Source: Cyanodermella asteris
Lineage: Eukaryota; Ascomycota; Lecanoromycetes; Ostropales; Stictidaceae
Assembly (NCBI GenBank): GCA_900618795.1
Contig: UYJD01000002.1
Span: 1 to 64,000 of the forward strand
Direction of reading: 5' to 3'
Length of the DNA: 64,000 nucleotides
Shown piece by piece: positions 33,433 to 62,881 of the stretch (position 1 is the first letter of the stretch; each line of letters starts with the position of its first letter). The notes below the pieces were generated by a model. That model saw nothing but the letters and a program-made list of their open reading frames with translations. It was not told where the DNA came from and searched no databases. Both the position numbers and the translations under genes were made by a program.

Positions 33433-33459
33433 GCAGCAGCAGCAGCAGCAGCAGCAGCA
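33433..33459. repeat. (GCA)9 trinucleotide microsatellite
   Basis: Nine perfect GCA units in the region upstream of the C2H2 gene. Confidence 0.95.
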
Positions 33460-34300: not shown

Positions 34301-36011
34301 TCAAGTCGCTGCACCCTCGCCAGTCTGGCCTTCCCGGCTTCGATCCACTCTGCAGCCGGGGCGTCGGATTTTTACCGCCATCAGCAGCCCTCCAACGCTC
34401 CTCTGACGCCGCCTCTCGACGACTTCGTCCTCGACAACTCTTATCCAGGCGCCGGCAGCGAGGCCCAGTTGCCCTCTCTGGACTACTCACACCCGTCTGC
34501 CGGTCACTTCTGGCCTGGCGACGTTCCCGTCCCGCCCCATCACCAGCACCAGCTCCAACAGTCCTACCAGCCTGCCATTGACAACGGCAAGCAAGAGGGG
34601 CGCTCTTTACCCCAAGACCCATACAATCACGCTATGACAGCAGTCGTGATACCACAGCCCGGTATGCCTTCTGTTATGGACGCCATCAACCCGCCTCCGA
34701 GCTTCAGCGCCCGCAAGACGCAGGCCTCTAATATGCCCGTTCCTGGCCGCATAGACCTGCCCGTCAACCCGGTCACGCAGAAGTTCAGTAGTGCCCTCCC
34801 TATGAATCATGGCCAGCAGGGAAGCATCAGCAGCCTGCTAACTCCTCCTTCCAATATTTCAGGTGACAGCCTCAGCCCCATTTCGTCCGCGGCTTCGACA
34901 CAGCATGCTGGTGCCGGTACTCAGGGAATTCCTCCCTTCACACCCAACGGTTCGTGGAACGGGCCCGGAGGCACTGGTCTGACTCCTATCCTCAGCTCGG
35001 GCACAGGCACCACACCACAGTCGTGGGGCTCCAACTTGAACTTCCCTCCTCCCAAGAACATGTGCTCGCTTCTTGGAGGGCTGGTTGGCACGACTGTCAG
35101 CCCAATGAAGTCCGAAGCCCTGCCGCCTCCTGCGTACAACATGAACGACCTCCATGCCCTTCCCACCTCATCAAGCGCCCATGTCAACATGACACAGTCG
35201 ACAACGGCAACGCATCACAACGGGCTTCCTGCTCACCAGCCACTTCCGCAACACATGTCGTACATGTCCATGCAGCCCGCGCCTCTCACTGCGAACGCGG
35301 TGGCTAGCCTACCGAGCCAGCACAACGGAAGCGATAGCTATATGCGCGCGCCGCCAACGCCTGCCACTTCCTACTACGGGAGCCAGGCGTCGAACACGCC
35401 TCTCCAGCCGAGCTTCCCGTTCAGCGCTTCGTCTCCTCCCGCTTTGAGCCCTCCTCCTCGCATCTCACCAGCGCAGTCTGCCTCGAACTTCTCCCCACCT
35501 CCCCTCTCAGGCACACCCAACAATGCCGGGCACCAGCCGTTCCAGCCGAGACCTTTCTTCAGCATGGGTGGGATGTCGAATGTTCACGGGTACCCGCCTT
35601 TCAACAGCGGACTGGCTGCTCAGCAGCATATGCCGTTTTCTGACGGCCGGGCTTACCAGCACGGGATGCTCGGCGCCCCTCAGCTGGCTCACAACGACCG
35701 ACCGTTCAAATGTGACCAGTGCCCTCAAAGCTTCAACCGCAACCACGATCTCAAGAGACATAAGCGCATTCATCTTGCCGTCAAGCCATTCCCTTGCGGG
35801 TGGTGCGACAAGAGCTTCAGCCGAAAGGATGCTCTCAAGGTCAGTCTACACTCACCACGCACATGAATCGTTTGCTAACATACAACAGAGACACATTCTT
35901 GTCAAAGGTTGCGGCAAGGCCATGGCCGGCAAGGACGGCGAAAAGGGTGACGATGACGACTCTAAGAGTGAGAGCGAAGGCGAGGCGAGCTCTGGAAACG
36001 CCGCCGCGTGA
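34301..36011 (+). CDS. C2H2 zinc-finger stress regulator, Seb1/Msn2-like (5' end open)
   Basis: Supported exons are about 34354-35839 and 35889-36011, with a 49-bp intron (35840-35888, GTCAGT...AACAG, CTAAC branch). The body is Pro/Ser/Gln-rich with TPPLDDFVLDNSYPG near its start. Two C-terminal fingers follow: FKCDQCPQSFNRNHDLKRH (C-x2-C-x12-H-x3-H) and FPCGWCDKSFSRKDALK, which splicing joins to RHILVKGCGK (H-x5-C). The tail is acidic and Lys/Ser-rich. This finger pair is typical of Trichoderma Seb1 and Aspergillus MsnA, which bind AGGGG stress elements in the nucleus under osmotic and oxidative stress. The frame is closed by a TGA at 34298 and has no ATG before 34469. An upstream exon is therefore needed, with the best acceptor CTCTGCAG at 34353. 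Five copies of a structured element follow the stop. Confidence 0.85.
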
Positions 36012-36077
36012 GGTCGGACTGCTTCGATATGACGATACCCTCCCAGCGACGGCCGGACAGTGCATCGCTAGAAATCA

Positions 36078-36439
36078 GCAAGACTGTCACCCCGAGACTT
36101 TGGTTACGGAACGTGATCTCTTGTATGCATGAAAAAGGGCGGCCAATTGTGAAGCGAAGCATTTACTGCGCCGTTACAAATGATACCACAAAGGACGCAG
36201 GACAGCCACCCCGATACTGACGTTACGGAATGTGGTCTCCTGCCGTACCTACGTCGATGGTGATAGACTGCTCTCCCGAGGCGTCAGCTACGGAATAGAG
36301 TCTCTGCCCATCTCATAATATTGCCGTCACGAGACTGCCCTCCCGAGACTCCGGTTACGGAATAGGGTCTCTCTGGCATTCTTCTTCTGTTTGAGTCGAG
36401 ACTGTCACCCCGAGCTTCGGTACGGATTGTGATCTCTCG
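36078..36439 (+). repeat. Tandem array of five covarying hairpin elements
   Basis: Units lie at 36078-36124, 36197-36243, 36264-36306, 36331-36373 and 36397-36439. Each has the order: outer stem, internal loop (CTG or CAG on the left, TC on the right), a 4-bp stem, invariant CCCGA, a small hairpin, TACGGA, then the right arms. The 4-bp stem is TCAC/GTGA, CCAC/GTGG, CTCT/AGAG, CCCT/AGGG and TCAC/GTGA in units 1-5. The outer stem is CAAGA/TCTTG, GCAGGA/TCCTGC, TAGA/TCTG, GAGA/TCTC and CGAGA/TCTCG. The arms change in concert, so pairing is kept while sequence drifts. The mispairs (outer stems of units 1 and 3, inner hairpin of unit 5) are G-U on the plus strand but would be A-C on the minus strand, pointing to plus-strand RNA. 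The array begins 66 bp after the C2H2 stop codon, so it is probably in that gene's 3' UTR or a downstream transcript. Confidence 0.85.
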
Positions 36440-37121
36440 CACTCGGTTGTTGCATTGCGGAGGCTTTGGACAGTGATGGTGAATGAACATTGTACGACCA
36501 ATCTCTGGATTCGACGTCAGTTTGCATTTGTTCAGCGAAGGCGCTTTGTTGGGGAGGAACCCATTGTTTATTGATGCACGGCGAGTTACCGCCAAGAAAC
36601 TTCTCAGATCTTATCCTAGACGTCCCCAAAGCAACGCAGTTACGGTTGGAATGACGAGGAAATTCATTTCTAGATTAGGTGTAATATATGCTCCTCTTGA
36701 ATCATCACATGTGTCTCTGCGCTTTTGTTACTGCTTGATGTATTTCGAAGTATCGTGCGACGTGCCTCGTCTCACGTTGCGAGTTTGCGGCAAACAACCA
36801 GGTCTTCATCTCGAACTACAACACCCCCTCGCCCGAGAACTTTCCTCATCATCAAGCCTTCAGAGCTCCATATCCAGCCTTCATACATCACACTTTTGCC
36901 GATCTGCCTGATCAAACAACGCTTATAGGATAGTTCATCAGCGCCGTCCACTGGACTTGAGCGCAGCGCTCAAAATGGCAGATGCATTCCCATGCCAGCT
37001 GGACTTTGAAGGTTCTTCGTAACTCTACCTAGCCGCTGTGCGCCGCCGATATGGCAGGAGATTGGTGATCGCGATCGTCCGTCCGTCCGTCAATTGTGCG
37101 TCCTGTGCATGCTCACCAAGC
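36440..37121. other. Convergent intergenic region, right part
   Basis: Lies between the hairpin array and the 3' end of the minus-strand SLIP-GC-like gene. Only short unconvincing open frames are seen. It probably holds the transcript ends of both neighbours. Confidence 0.4.
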
Positions 37122-39077
37122 TCATGTCGGTCTGAATTCCTGCTGTTGTCGATCCATCTTCGAACCGATTCCGGATCCTGTACGCTTGTTATGAGAGCGC
37201 GACAGCAGGTCCCCAATCTGCATCCGTGCATTCACAAGACATTCGGCGATGGCTTCCACTGCCGGGTCGCTCTGTGCCGACGTTGCGCCGTTTGCGTCGA
37301 TGTAGTCGACGATCCTGTTGAGAGTCGATTCGATCCCGAGCACTTGCTTGCGATGGGAGAAGCGGACATCCTTTGCTCGCATCCGGCTGAACTTTTCCAT
37401 GATCTGCGGTACGCCGGTGCATTCCTCGGTCTGCATATCGTTGAATACGGAATCGCGATCCCTTGGAATCTCATCGCAGGTCGCTCCGTTGGCCGTTGTT
37501 CTTGCAACGGCTCGTTCATATGCCTCCGGGTGGAAATGGTTGACACTGATTTGTTCCCTGCCAAAATCCACCAGTGGGTCCTGGATCGGCGAGTCGGCCG
37601 CATTGGCGAGCAGGGATTGCATTCGCTGACCGCAGTCGTCCTCGTAAAGTCCGCAAATCTCTGCACGGGTAGGAGCGAGTAGCAAATCTGTCCGATGAGC
37701 CATCACGTCGTCGTGCCGCGACTGACGGAAAAGGATCTCGCACTCGTGTGCAGCCGCTATTTCTTCGCACCGATCAAGCCCTGCTCGCCGCATGTCCAGG
37801 CTGTCTTGTGTCTCTTGGTAGTTTGCTCCCCAGCGGAAGGTCGGGGCCGCAGATGATCCACTATCCGGCAAACGCCTTCGCAAATTTCGAAGACTTTCAA
37901 CGGCCTGGACGACGGTAGTCTTCGCCATGGTAGCGCATTCTCTGGCTGCGACGGCTTGCCGACGCAAGTTTTGCACAGCTTTCAAGTCTTCGATGATCAC
38001 TGGCTCAAGATTCCCGACTTCTGCCAATACCGCCGCTGGTGCAACCTGGTCCATGCTGTCCCATTCGGCCCATACCTCAGTGAGTATGATCTGAACAAGA
38101 GTAAAGGCGTCAAGGGCTCGAACGAGTCGAGTAGCAACAGTTTGAAGTGCTCCGCTGTCGCGTCTGTGGTGCCGGTACTGGTCTAGACCGGACTCACAAA
38201 CAGTAAAGACAGCTCCGTTGCACTTCGCGAGAGCAGCAAGCGCCCTTTCCCTCCAAGCAGGATACGGAATGTAGTCAAGACTGATGTCTGAAGGAGGGAG
38301 GCACCAAAGAACTAGGCCATCACGAAGATGGTCAGATGGAACCCTCACAACAATTTTCGATATCAGTGGCCAGGGCGATTTGTCTCGGCGGTCGCAGGCA
38401 AATGCGCGAAGCGCACAAGAGACTCCCGCAGCCTTATCAAAGGCGAATGTGTTGAATTTCAGGTTATATTGTCCTTTGCGACTGAACAAATCGGCTGCGC
38501 GCTCTTCGTACTTCAGTAGCTGCCGTCTCTGATCCAAAGTTTCGTGCAAGTCCGGGAACAGAGTCTTCAGGTACTGAAGGGCGGATTGAAAACGCACGTA
38601 AGCAGCGCCACTGCTGATGTGCCAGCAACCGTCGTCAGAACGCCAATAGCGCGAATGCCGTAGATGACCTTCAGGATTGATGTAATCATTGACTCGCGAG
38701 ATCAACTCGCTCCGTATTTCTTCGTCACTGAAGAATTCAATCTCAGCCTCGATGCGATTGGTGCGACTGTATTGGACCGCGACGAGAGTAAGAATGTTCT
38801 CAGGTATGAGACCAGGATATGCAATGGCTTTATTGATGATCCACGACTTCCACCTGTATGCGGGTCCAAAGATTGCGACATTGGTAGTCTGGGAAGGCGA
38901 GCAGTTACTCGGATCTTGCAAGGTCTGCCCAAGCGCGCAGGCGACCTGATCACCATCGCAGAGCTTGGCAGCAAGAGAGGAGACATTGGACACGATCGAT
39001 GCCGCAAAGGCGGGCGTCGCAGAGACATCGAGGGAATCAAAGTGCTCTTTCATCTCGAAATGGCCAGGAGCAGGCAT
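37122..39077 (-). CDS. SLIP-GC/dynamin-like protein with degenerate GTPase motifs
   Basis: Single uninterrupted frame of 651 residues on the minus strand. The layout follows fungal proteins related to nuclear GTPase SLIP-GC: TNVAIFGPAYRWKSWIINKA at the P-loop position (residues 65-84), IEAEIEFFSDEEI after it, WPLISKIVVRVPS, then DGLVLWCLPPSD where these GTPases have VLVDLPG. A long helical C-terminal half follows. The P-loop lacks the glycines of GxxGxGKS and the Asp-x-x-Gly switch is replaced by CLPP, so GTP hydrolysis is unlikely; only the Lys-Ser pair (77-78) remains. This is inferred from motif loss in an otherwise intact frame. Such proteins are often multicopy and fast evolving in filamentous fungi. 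The ATG at 39077 is the first in frame. The role is unknown. Confidence 0.7.
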   Translation of the reverse strand: MPAPGHFEMKEHFDSLDVSATPAFAASIVSNVSSLAAKLCDGDQVACALGQTLQDPSNCSPSQTTNVAIFGPAYRWKSWIINKAIAYPGLIPENILTLVAVQYSRTNRIEAEIEFFSDEEIRSELISRVNDYINPEGHLRHSRYWRSDDGCWHISSGAAYVRFQSALQYLKTLFPDLHETLDQRRQLLKYEERAADLFSRKGQYNLKFNTFAFDKAAGVSCALRAFACDRRDKSPWPLISKIVVRVPSDHLRDGLVLWCLPPSDISLDYIPYPAWRERALAALAKCNGAVFTVCESGLDQYRHHRRDSGALQTVATRLVRALDAFTLVQIILTEVWAEWDSMDQVAPAAVLAEVGNLEPVIIEDLKAVQNLRRQAVAARECATMAKTTVVQAVESLRNLRRRLPDSGSSAAPTFRWGANYQETQDSLDMRRAGLDRCEEIAAAHECEILFRQSRHDDVMAHRTDLLLAPTRAEICGLYEDDCGQRMQSLLANAADSPIQDPLVDFGREQISVNHFHPEAYERAVARTTANGATCDEIPRDRDSVFNDMQTEECTGVPQIMEKFSRMRAKDVRFSHRKQVLGIESTLNRIVDYIDANGATSAQSDPAVEAIAECLVNARMQIGDLLSRSHNKRTGSGIGSKMDRQQQEFRPT

Positions 39078-40050: not shown

Positions 40051-41509
40051 CTACAGCTTTGCCTTCTTCCCAGCCAGCTGCAAGCCCGTCACGTTCTCTA
40101 GCTCTTTGACCGCATCGTCAACGTGGCCCATGTTGACCTTGATCGTCCGCAAGCCGACTTCTCTCGCCGCCTTGAGGTTCTGCCCAATGTCATCCAGAAA
40201 GCAGATGTCCTGCGCCGTCACGCCACTTCCTCCCCTACTTCTGTCAAACTCATCCAGCTTGTCAATCGCATACTTGTAGATGGCATGGTCTGGCTTGCGC
40301 AGCCCGATGTCGGCGCTGCCGACGAAGACGTCGAAATGTGAACGTACACCTCTCGGGTCGTCGGAAATATCCTTGCTCCACGGGTGATCGGGAGGGAAGT
40401 TGACAGTGTTCGACAGCGCCCCGACGATGTATTTGCCGGAAGCTTTGAGGTTCAGCAGCGCTGGATACATGTGTGGATCTGGGCTGCGCGAGCGGCCGAT
40501 CATGTCCCAGAAAAGCGTCGTCGAATCAACGTTCGGCAGGGGAGGGATGCCATCGGTCTTGGAGTAGCCGGTGTCATCTTGGCCTGGCAAAGGGCTTGAT
40601 GAACTGCCTTCATTCTTGAGACTGGTCGGATCACCGAGCATGTTCTTTTGGTAGCTCTGCTTTAGGAAATTGCCGCTTGACGGCCGTGCAGCTGATGACG
40701 ACGATGGCGACGGTGGTGCCGCACTACTCGAGGAAGACCCATCCTTGGAGTATCCTGTATCTGCCTGATCCGGGATAGGACTTGACGAGCTTCCTTCGTT
40801 CTTGAGGCTGGTAGGATCCCCGAGCAAATTGCTCTTATAGCTCTGCTTCAGTGAGTTTTGTGGCACGCTGCTCCTGCCAACTCCGGCGGCATTGTCTGAA
40901 GCACTGCCCTTTGAGTAGCCTGTAGCTTGGTCCTCGCTAGCGACAGGCTCAGAGGAGGATCCCTCATTCTTCAAGCTCGTCGGATCTCCCAGCATGTTCT
41001 TCTGATACCTCTCCTTGAGTGAGTTGCCGCTGCCCGTACTACGCGCATTTGTAGCCAGCGAGATGGAGGGGGATGCACCGGCTTCTTCAGGAGTCGGAAC
41101 TTTTGATGAAGTTTCTGCCTTCAGACTGACCGGGTCGCCGAGCTGGGATGCCTTCGCCTTGGCGGTGTCGGCAAGTCTCCTCTTGCGGTTCTTGAAGATC
41201 TTGTGATACGCGTCCCAAGATTCCTGGCGATTGAGATCGGCCTTGAAGCCTGCAAAGAATTCATCGCCCAGCTTCAACTCGCCCCTTTCCAGCCTGTGCC
41301 AGGCGCCACGTGGTGCTGCTTGCGAAATTGCGAAGTTGATGTAGTCCTTGGGCAACCCGTTCTGTGTTTCGTAGTCTACAATAGCTGACATCGGCGAGAC
41401 AACCTGCTGTTGTCAGTACACAGTATATGCAGTCAGAACAGAGCGGCTTTCAGGAGATACATACGCAAACCCCACCGATATCAAAGAGAATGGCCTTTGG
41501 CTTGGACAT
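40051..41509 (-). CDS. HAD-superfamily hydrolase with repeat-rich insertion
   Basis: Two exons on the minus strand, 41465-41509 and 40051-41403, with a 61-bp intron (41404-41464, GTATGT...GCAG); the product is 465 residues. The first exon supplies MSKPKAILFDIGGVC with nucleophile Asp10 and the DIGGV form of HAD motif I seen in the epoxide-hydrolase/ACAD10-type branch. Motif II is in GALSNTVNFP, the motif III lysine is in GLRKPDHAIY, and motif IV is CFLDDIGQN. Between the cap start (SWDAYHKIFKNRKRRL) and WDMIGRSR lies a low-complexity insertion of about 200 residues with repeated GDPTSLKNEG and TGYSK units. An alternative acceptor three bases upstream would add one Gln. The substrate is unknown; related proteins act on phosphate esters or haloacids. 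It is divergent from the DUF4470 gene. Confidence 0.85.
40560..41030 (-). repeat. In-frame tandem repeats inside the HAD gene
   Basis: Three strong copies and one weak copy of a roughly 170-190-base unit encoding LKQSYQKNMLGDPTSLKNEG, then a Ser-rich stretch and DTGYSK. The GDPTSLKNEG codons lie near 40615, 40800 and 40975; a diverged copy (GDPVSLKAE) lies near 41130. Linkers between units vary in length and are Ser/Pro/Ala-rich. Confidence 0.85.
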
Positions 41510-60214: not shown

Positions 60215-61594
60215 ATGCGCTCCGACTTCCTCCTCATGGCCTCGGCGGCCACGGCCTACCCGTTCATGGGCCCCGGCATGGAGAATGAGAAGCGAATTGA
60301 CGACCTCACTGCTCGCGTCGGCTCTGTCCTTGGACGCGAAGCTGTCAACGCTGCAGCTGAGCATTCCAAGAACAAGAGACAACTCATCTCCGGTCTGCTC
60401 GGCAGTCTTGGTGGAGGCCTCAACCTCGAAGGTATTCTGCAGCCTCTAAGCGGTGTTCTCGCCGCACTTGACATTCCCACTCCTCAGCCCTTCGGCCTCA
60501 AGGAGATTCCTGGTGACGATCCTGACCACCAGTTTATCGCTCCCAAGGCTAGCGACGTTCGCGGTCTTTGCCCTTCGATGAACACCCTGGCCAATTACGG
60601 CTACATTTCCCGCACGGGTATCACCACCCTTGCCGAGTCATCTAATGCTATTCAGACTGTCTGGGGCTTCGGCTACGACCTTGCCACCTTTCTGGCCGCC
60701 CTCGGTCTCATTGCTGGTGGTGACCTGCCCACCGGAAAGTTCTCCATCGGTGGCGCCGACAGCCGTGTGCCCAACACACTCGGCCCGGCACTGGGTATAG
60801 ACAAGCACGGCACATTTGAGATCGACGGCTCCATCTCGCGACAGGACAACTACTTTGGTAACCAAGCGGATTTCATTCCCAGCCGATGGAAGGCGATCCG
60901 CAAGCAGGCCGAGACCGTCGGCGGCGGATACTACGGCCCCGAGATGTGGATCGAGAACCAGAAGCAGAGCTACCTGATGTCACGCAACACCAACCCCGAG
61001 GCTGTCCTGAGCGTCAAGTACTTCGCCGTCTCTCTCGCCGAGCGTGCCTTCATGTACCGCGCCTTTCCCAACGGTACCACCCCCGAGATCGCCGATGCTG
61101 CCAACATCGAGCCCTTCTGGCTGGAGAACAAGTTTCCCAAGAACTGGTTCCGCCGCGACACGCCCTACGGCCTTGCCAACTTGGCCGTCGACCTGGTCGA
61201 CCTGTACGCCGGCTATCCCTTCGAGCTCGGTGTCAACAACGGTCTCGACAGCTTCACCCCGCTCGGCGAGGACATCAGCGGCAAGTCCGTCAACGACATC
61301 ATGTGCTTCGTCCTCACCAACATCTTCGACACCGTTCCCGGTTCCGTACAGCCCCTCCTGGCCGAGAATATTGACACTTTCGCCGGCTTCGTCTCTGGTA
61401 TCCTGTCACCTTTCTTCGCCCCCTTCAACTGCCCGGAAGTCAACAGCTTCTCTTCGCCCGGTGAGAGCTGCAAGCTCGGCACGGGCGGAAAGCAGACTTG
61501 CACTGACCCGAGCGGTAACCCAACCAACCCGGCGGACAACTCTGGCATGCTCAAGGACACCCCTGCCCCTGGCAAGCCTTTGACCAACCAGTAA
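60215..61594 (+). CDS. Haem-thiolate peroxygenase (chloroperoxidase/UPO family)
   Basis: Single-exon frame of 459 residues. The N-terminus MRSDFLLMASAATAYPF is a short secretion signal. DVRGLCPSMNTLANYGYISR carries the axial Cys119 of the haem-thiolate site. The usual Pro-Cys-Pro motif is Leu-Cys-Pro here. The distal acid-base region is FEIDGSISRQDNYFGN (Glu202, Ser206, Arg209), matching the E-x-D-x-S-x-S-R-x-D pattern of peroxidase family 2. The rest (GYYGPEMWIENQKQSYLMSR, AERAFMYRAFPNG, VNNGLDSFTPLGEDISGKS) matches long ascomycete members. Such enzymes use hydrogen peroxide to oxygenate or halogenate organic substrates outside the cell. A Pro/Asn-rich tail follows the domain. It converges with the protease gene, with 234 bp between the stops. 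Confidence 0.92.
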   Translation: MRSDFLLMASAATAYPFMGPGMENEKRIDDLTARVGSVLGREAVNAAAEHSKNKRQLISGLLGSLGGGLNLEGILQPLSGVLAALDIPTPQPFGLKEIPGDDPDHQFIAPKASDVRGLCPSMNTLANYGYISRTGITTLAESSNAIQTVWGFGYDLATFLAALGLIAGGDLPTGKFSIGGADSRVPNTLGPALGIDKHGTFEIDGSISRQDNYFGNQADFIPSRWKAIRKQAETVGGGYYGPEMWIENQKQSYLMSRNTNPEAVLSVKYFAVSLAERAFMYRAFPNGTTPEIADAANIEPFWLENKFPKNWFRRDTPYGLANLAVDLVDLYAGYPFELGVNNGLDSFTPLGEDISGKSVNDIMCFVLTNIFDTVPGSVQPLLAENIDTFAGFVSGILSPFFAPFNCPEVNSFSSPGESCKLGTGGKQTCTDPSGNPTNPADNSGMLKDTPAPGKPLTNQ

Positions 61595-61828: not shown

Positions 61829-62881
61829 TCAGCCACGCGACAAACTCACTCTGAAACCACTTACAACGGCCTGCTCAGCCCCAGTCTTGTTACCGTAGTC
61901 ATACACCACGTAGACATTCTTCAAAAAGCTCTGGCCCATGATGCATCCACTATCGATGACCTGCGGCTGGCCTGTACACTTATTGCCAGTGTTCGGAATC
62001 TTGATCGAGCTCTGCGGGACCGCATACTCAATACCTCCAACCTCAAACTTCATGTCCGGTAGCTTCGCATCGCAAGGATAACTGTAAAAGCTACCATCCT
62101 CTTCGGCCTGATCGACCTGCTTCCAGTAGTTCGCGACCATGCTCCGCGGAACCTTCATGTACGTGGTACCAGTGTCGAGATCGCAGGTCGCTTCGCCTTG
62201 ACCGGCCTTGACACTCACATCCCAATGCGGGTTGTCCTGGTCGACGGGCACCCAATTCACCTCCCCATAGCCGTCCGGAATCTTCGTGTATCCGATTGCA
62301 ATCTCACCACGCTCGAAGTCCACGCTCACGACCGGCTCCTGCAGATGCGGCGCAATCTCCTGGATCCACGAGTCCGTCTGTGCTTTGCCGGCAAACTGTG
62401 AGGGTCGCGACGCAATGCCCAAGATGCCATCGTAGCCATCAAACTTGTTGCCCTTTGAGTTGATCTTGTCGGCGATTCCGAAGGAGAGGGAGTCGAGCTC
62501 CAGGCCGCCGACGGTGACGGGACCTGTGTGGACGCTGCCGGAGACCTCGCCGCTGCCGTAGGATATGTCGAAACTCTGGCCCGTGGACTGGGTGCCACTG
62601 AGCTTGTCGGCGTTGGGCCCTTTGATCCAGAGGCCGCTGGAGCCGGTGTCGAGGAGCACGTTGAACGTTTGGCCGCCGACTTGGATGGGGGAGATGTATT
62701 CTCCGGTACCGGCGCGTTGAGTGGCGCTCACGGATCCGGTGAGGGTACCTGAGGAAGAAGCAGCGTCGGCGCGGTTGATGATGGGAGTCGGATCTTCTCC
62801 GGTGATCCCATCAAGTGGAAGTGCTGCTGCGAAGGAGATGAATGCTTGCAGACCAGCAACGAGATGCTTGTTGATAAGCAT
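61829..62881 (-). CDS. Pepsin-like secreted aspartic protease
   Basis: Minus-strand frame of 350 residues from the ATG at 62881. The frame is open further upstream, but that part precedes the TATA box and lacks a signal peptide. MLINKHLVAGLQAFISFAAA is the signal sequence, then a short propeptide (to about residue 55). The first lobe has FNVLLDTGSSGLW (catalytic Asp78) and the flap SYGSGEVSG (Tyr108). The second lobe has ATCDLDTGTTYMKVP (catalytic Asp236). FDGYDGILGIA and GCIMGQSFLKNVYVVYDYGN are family landmarks. Two cysteines bracket TGQPQVIDSG, as in the conserved C-terminal disulphide. It should act at acid pH outside the cell. The propeptide is shorter than in aspergillopepsin I, resembling other short fungal pepsin-like proteases. 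Confidence 0.93.
   Translation of the reverse strand: MLINKHLVAGLQAFISFAAALPLDGITGEDPTPIINRADAASSSGTLTGSVSATQRAGTGEYISPIQVGGQTFNVLLDTGSSGLWIKGPNADKLSGTQSTGQSFDISYGSGEVSGSVHTGPVTVGGLELDSLSFGIADKINSKGNKFDGYDGILGIASRPSQFAGKAQTDSWIQEIAPHLQEPVVSVDFERGEIAIGYTKIPDGYGEVNWVPVDQDNPHWDVSVKAGQGEATCDLDTGTTYMKVPRSMVANYWKQVDQAEEDGSFYSYPCDAKLPDMKFEVGGIEYAVPQSSIKIPNTGNKCTGQPQVIDSGCIMGQSFLKNVYVVYDYGNKTGAEQAVVSGFRVSLSRG

Follow-up and report, generated by a model that had tools for sequence, protein, structure and literature searches.

The locus and its five-unit array

The window, that is, the whole 64,000-nt stretch of DNA analysed here, contains a C2H2 zinc-finger gene followed on the same strand by five copies of one 45-47 nt element (plus strand, 36078-36440), the first of which starts 67 nt past the predicted stop of the gene (Table 1). 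Joining the ORF (34634-35839) to the exon from 35889 gives a predicted protein that reads ...DALKRHILVKGCGK...; an alternative acceptor two bases further was rejected, as it breaks the second finger. The two fingers (FKCDQCPQSFNRNHDLKRHKRIH and FPCGWCDKSFSRKDALKRH) are taken here to resemble the second and third fingers of yeast Swi5/Ace2 rather than those of Msn2/Seb1. The original prediction had spoken of a Seb1/Msn2-like stress-regulator gene; the domain supports a C2H2 protein, whereas the Seb1/Msn2 label is unsupported, and "stress-regulator gene" is best dropped because of the presumed likeness to Swi5/Ace2 fingers 2 and 3. PDB searches returned zinc fingers of many kinds among the matches listed (the best 60 of 268 and the best 60 of 286), and no Msn2 or Swi5/Ace2 chains were among these. 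The next long ORF (651 aa) lies on the minus strand, with its stop 682 nt beyond the array, so it and the C2H2 gene would converge on the gap in which the array lies. The genes of the window and the predicted intron suggest a filamentous ascomycete.

Table 1. Coordinates of the array units and adjoining genes in the window.
Feature	Position	Strand	Remarks
C2H2 zinc-finger gene	34634..36011	+	ORF counted from 34634; possible true start upstream
Predicted intron of C2H2 gene	35840-35888	+	next exon from 35889
Predicted stop of C2H2 gene	36009-36011	+	from the predicted splice
Hairpin unit 1	36078..36124	+	core CCCGA at 36091
Hairpin unit 2	36197..36243	+	core at 36210
Hairpin unit 3	36262..36308	+	core at 36275; lower extension GAUGG/CCAUC
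Hairpin unit 4	36329..36375	+	core at 36342; lower extension UGCCG/UGGCA
Hairpin unit 5	36396..36440	+	core at 36409; apical loop C(UUCG)G
Convergent ORF, 651 aa	37122..39077	-	no Pfam match at E 0.001

Three further observations concern the neighbourhood. A perfect (GCA)9 lies about 1.2 kb upstream of the C2H2 ORF (33433-33459), possibly in its promoter or 5' leader. A 446-aa minus-strand ORF (40051-41391) has two HAD-type hydrolase matches just under the Pfam cut-offs, preceded by three copies of LGDPTSLKNEGSSS, an odd addition for such an enzyme. Farther along, a Peroxidase_2 family ORF (60215-61594, plus strand) adjoins an aspartyl protease ORF (61829-62881, minus strand).

All five units announced by the original prediction are present on the plus strand (cores 36091-36409), and all share the CCCGA and TACGGA that it had pointed out, matching CCCGA-N(4-16)-TACGGA. 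This pattern, which was composed after the units had been seen, has five matches across the 64 kb, always in the array and always on the plus strand, against 0.15 matches expected per window, and none of 100 shuffles reached five. From unit 1 to unit 5, the core-to-core spacing is 119, 65, 67, and 67 nt, a near-constant period in units 2-5. Pairwise identity is 57-80% over 45-47 aligned columns, so the copies must be old or fast-changing; Tandem Repeats Finder did not report the array. A covariance model scan of the window recovered the five units only, and neither the pattern nor the model found additional copies on either strand of it. A possible sixth unit, decayed but in register with the others (36458..36515, plus strand, GACAG ... 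AATCTC), was rejected: its 2.3 bits (E 4.4) are not significant and may be chance, being no better than minus-strand matches of 3.5 and 2.3 bits (filters off, 35900-37200). The segments 36128-36193, 36012-36074, and 36446-36520 showed no unusual folding (z -0.67, 1.07, and 0.41), and 36012-36460 showed no sign of coding, with 3 to 7 stops in each of the six frames and a longest open stretch of 68 codons.

Beyond the window, pattern scans of viral contigs gave no matches to patterns that demand near-consensus copies, and a protein scan that took the finger region as query turned up no relative in collections that are viral and prokaryote by description. The pattern scan of bacterial and archaeal genomes gave two matches, where rough arithmetic puts about five down to chance, and the covariance model matches neither locus. 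Because the collections are viral and prokaryote by description, these scans say nothing on conservation in fungi.

Hairpin structure and compensatory change

Folding each unit alone, as the original prediction had proposed, yielded a common hairpin core as the minimum-energy structure in all five; what varies between them is how long the outer helix is and how the apical part is built, with two pairs in units 2 and 5 and three in units 1, 3, and 4. The outer helix is topped by an invariant GA/UC and is followed by a lower internal loop (CU/C, or CA/C in unit 2), an inner helix of five pairs that begins with an invariant G-U (columns 16-47, 5/5 units), an upper internal loop (C/AAY, where unit 5 has AUU), an invariant CCG/CGG helix, and an A/A mismatch. 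Above the mismatch, a G-U, replaced by U-U in unit 2, is followed by one or two further pairs and by variable four-base apical loops (UUUG, UGAC, GUCA, UCCG, and UUCG). The C-TTCG-G tetraloop described earlier for unit 5 is there, closed by C-G, and the stem sequences listed with it are correct on the alignment. Internal-loop columns are invariant in 6 of 9 cases, versus 14 of 34 paired columns in the five-unit alignment. With no structure supplied, RNAalifold drew 20 pairs, namely 16 of the 17 used here and four basal ones; units 2-5 form extra basal pairs when their flanks are included, and the basal pairs at columns 8-54 and 9-53 are each broken in two of the five units.

Units 1-5 are equalled in folding energy by 3, 3, 46, 17, and 18 of 200 shuffles, respectively, and the 529-nt region taken together shows no unusual stability (plus strand z -0.85, with 21 of 100 shuffles as stable; minus strand z -0.62). 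Stability alone is weak evidence; compensation is the convincing part.

The covariation set consists of the five paralogous copies from this one locus (17 pairs, 83 cells). In total, 78 of the 83 cells pair (94.0%), a proportion that none of 500 shuffles reached. Among paralogues of this kind, a change inherited by several copies enters the count repeatedly, and the changes are not independent events on a tree; on this count, both sides changed in 7 of the 17 pairs (12 cells), a number reached by 10 of 500 shuffles. The covariation score of 0.447 (shuffles 0.203 +/- 0.050) was reached by none of 500, and it fell to 0.03-0.10 when the partner was shifted by 1-3 columns. These values bear out the earlier claim that the stems change in step. 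A count of further pair types was not above chance (365 of 500 shuffles). With five sequences, a column pair taken singly is weak evidence, because only 6 of the 20 column pairs that are paired in all five units and show a double change belong to the structure. Four doubly changed pairs are stacked in one uninterrupted helix, which none of 2000 column shuffles reached. Arms swapped between units, scored on the seven doubly changed pairs and hence on pairs selected for varying, gave 34 pairs in the true combination, against a mean of 23.8, and none of the other 119 combinations had as many; for example, when the 3' arm of unit 3 is set against the inner 5' arm of unit 1 or of unit 5, none of the four positions forms a Watson-Crick pair.

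The original prediction had suggested a covariance model of the units, and one built within the window from units 1, 2, and 5 recovered the held-out units 4 and 3 at 44.6 and 37.5 bits, versus 27.0 and 10.9 bits for a sequence-only model of the same alignment. The structure gain in the held-out units is thus 17.6 bits (unit 4) and 26.6 bits (unit 3), part of which comes from invariant pairs, because structure also adds 20.1-23.4 bits to the training units. All five units had been considered when the structure was drawn, so the hold-out is not entirely blind; units 1, 2, and 5 folded singly show the same helices as the drawn structure. The units thus represent a structured RNA element with covariation, in that compensation among five paralogues goes beyond that of shuffles, and we hold it to be very probable that the hairpins have been selected as RNA.

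Read on the plus strand, the cells that are not Watson-Crick include eleven G-U and one A-C. Two conserved pairs supply nine of these eleven G-U cells, which are therefore not independent. The original prediction had stated that all such pairs are G-U, which is almost correct, given the one A-C cell. Pair 26-35 carries U-U in unit 2. In the 529-nt context, the mean pairing probability of the inner helix in units 1-5 is 0.95, 0.98, 0.80, 0.56, and 0.96 on the plus strand and 0.14, 0.10, 0.00, 0.07, and 0.71 on the minus strand. The plus-strand helices have mean probabilities of at least 0.92 in units 1 and 5, of 0.79-0.98 in unit 3, and of at least 0.98 in unit 2 except for its apical pairs (0.58), and those of unit 4 have 0.09 (outer), 0.56 (inner), and 0.76. 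On the minus strand, units 1-4 show 0.00-0.19 for the outer and inner helices, whereas unit 5 reaches 0.92 (outer) and 0.71 (inner); the CCG/CGG helix stands at 0.89-1.00 in units 2, 3, and 5, and units 2 and 3 have their apical pairs at 0.63 and 0.66. When units 2 and 3 are folded singly, the minus strand gives the lower energies (-22.7 and -16.1, against -20.6 and -14.2 on the plus strand), and the distance of unit 2 from its shuffles is alike on both (minus z -2.76, plus z -2.81). On balance, the G-U excess and the pairing probabilities in context favour plus-strand RNA, and the earlier reading of selection on that strand explains the data better than its opposite.

Putative role of the array

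The position and strand of the array make it likely that it belongs to the C2H2 mRNA, where its place would be the 3' UTR. A cluster of protein docking sites fits best, because the loops and core are conserved, the helices are of free sequence, and five repeats stand in a row after the stop codon. The chances that the hairpins are protein-binding sites at all seem to us evenly balanced, and we would give similar weight to the fuller model, in which the cluster lies in the 3' UTR and each unit is a putative docking site for one copy of an RNA-binding protein. Under this model, every hairpin would dock the same protein, which may read the conserved internal loops and the CCG/CGG core while the helices of free sequence hold the shape. 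Five sites in a row would allow multivalent binding, and this could set the stability, translation, or localisation of the regulator's transcript. One candidate binder would be the C2H2 protein itself, by autoregulation. That the five-hairpin array represents a new fungal cis-acting RNA family bound by its own Swi5/Ace2-like C2H2 factor is very doubtful; if true, a DNA-binding regulator would count its own protein on its own mRNA. Whatever the binder, the array offers a ready bait with which to identify it and would make a test case for how multivalent binding controls the mRNA of a transcription factor in filamentous fungi.

In our judgement, most of the remaining odds are shared by four other explanations. 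One point against protein docking is that binding of a small molecule, or catalysis, would be expected to look no different in the sequence: small conserved internal loops round a short invariant core, with variable helices and a variable apical loop, would also suit a ligand aptamer or a self-cleaving ribozyme in each unit, working without a protein in a tandem riboswitch or cleavage cassette. We consider this unlikely, as no Rfam class was found on the array strand at E up to 10, the host gene encodes a C2H2 protein and not a metabolic enzyme, and a single stem without a junction would be small for either. Moreover, for two fungal 3' UTR structures beside metabolic genes, there is evidence against their being riboswitches (PMC8216456). 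The array also lies shortly past the predicted stop and before a convergent ORF, and its tandem hairpins could be a processing or termination signal, subject to RNase III-like cutting or fixing the 3' end by blocking an exonuclease; such a signal would not be expected to keep invariant internal loops and CCCGA/UACGGA bases, the stability of the hairpins is modest, and we see in it a minor possibility.

A separate noncoding RNA, or several small RNAs, could arise from the array outside the C2H2 mRNA, given that position and strand are all that ties the array to the gene in the sequence. The 67 nt past the predicted stop would be short for an independent promoter, no Rfam small-RNA match was found on the array strand, and this explanation appears improbable. 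Least probable of all is a DNA-level repeat, that is, a decayed tandem repeat or mobile element whose arms were kept alike by template switching or gene conversion with no selection on RNA. The tandem layout, the near-constant period in units 2-5, the imperfect inverted repeats, and the good folding of units 2 and 3 on the minus strand are what such a repeat would leave behind, but arms match within units and much less between them, asymmetric internal loops persist and are well conserved, and no further copy was found on either strand of the window. In addition, arm-to-arm copying should have removed the G-U at columns 16-47, which is kept in all five units. Protein docking remains the explanation that we prefer.

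Comparison with known structured RNAs

Rfam 15 contributed no family at its gathering score in the window, and in 36000-36560 at E up to 10 it returned H19_2 alone, on the minus strand and at 16.1 bits against a gathering score of 50. The original prediction had named no matching RNA family, and the comparison agrees: none at threshold and none on the array strand. Among the titles listed from the open-licence literature, none names such a tandem hairpin array.

Several short RNA elements are, like the putative docking sites, read by one protein, among them the iron-responsive element, the Smaug/Vts1 recognition hairpin, and the kink-turn. The iron-responsive element has a bulged C five pairs below a CAGUGN loop, and the Smaug/Vts1 hairpin carries a CNGG loop on a stem. 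The bulged C resembles a feature of the units, and neither CAGUGN nor CNGG occurs among the five apical loops; the units contain no tandem GA/AG of the kink-turn kind.

In ASH1-type zip-codes, which are bound by She2p, a CGA triplet in a loop and a single C in a second loop lie 4-5 bp apart (PMC3474952). They are stem-loops with bulged regions in the mRNA of a regulator, as the units probably are, and both have a CGA triplet and a single cytosine. The CGA of the zip-codes sits in a loop, whereas that of the array, present in 5/5 units, is predicted to have its C and G paired and only its A free, so the zip-code arrangement described there is not found in the array (PMC3474952).

The closest parallels come from surveys of candidate motifs. 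Among those of Li and Breaker 2017, such as rps0 in 3' UTRs, are hairpins with conserved internal loops like those of the units, some of which are thought to bind protein for feedback control; rps0 differs from the array in having two hairpins, one with GGGGAAAG elements (PMC5640933). "Tandem" and "zinc finger" are absent from the main text of that paper as excerpted, and the excerpts of PMC5640933 and PMC8216456 describe no tandem or C2H2-linked motif, a comparison made at the level of description. Gao, Jones and Rivas 2021 report fungal structured RNAs that are predominantly single copy and mostly of unknown function (PMC8216456). The array differs from the 17 names in Table 1 of that paper, none of which is a C2H2 factor and four of which are intergenic, and it is like those elements in being structured and supported by covariation, with some of them in 3' UTRs (PMC8216456). 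Beside them, an array of five units in which the loops stay constant and the stems are freely exchanged would count as an RNA family not described before.
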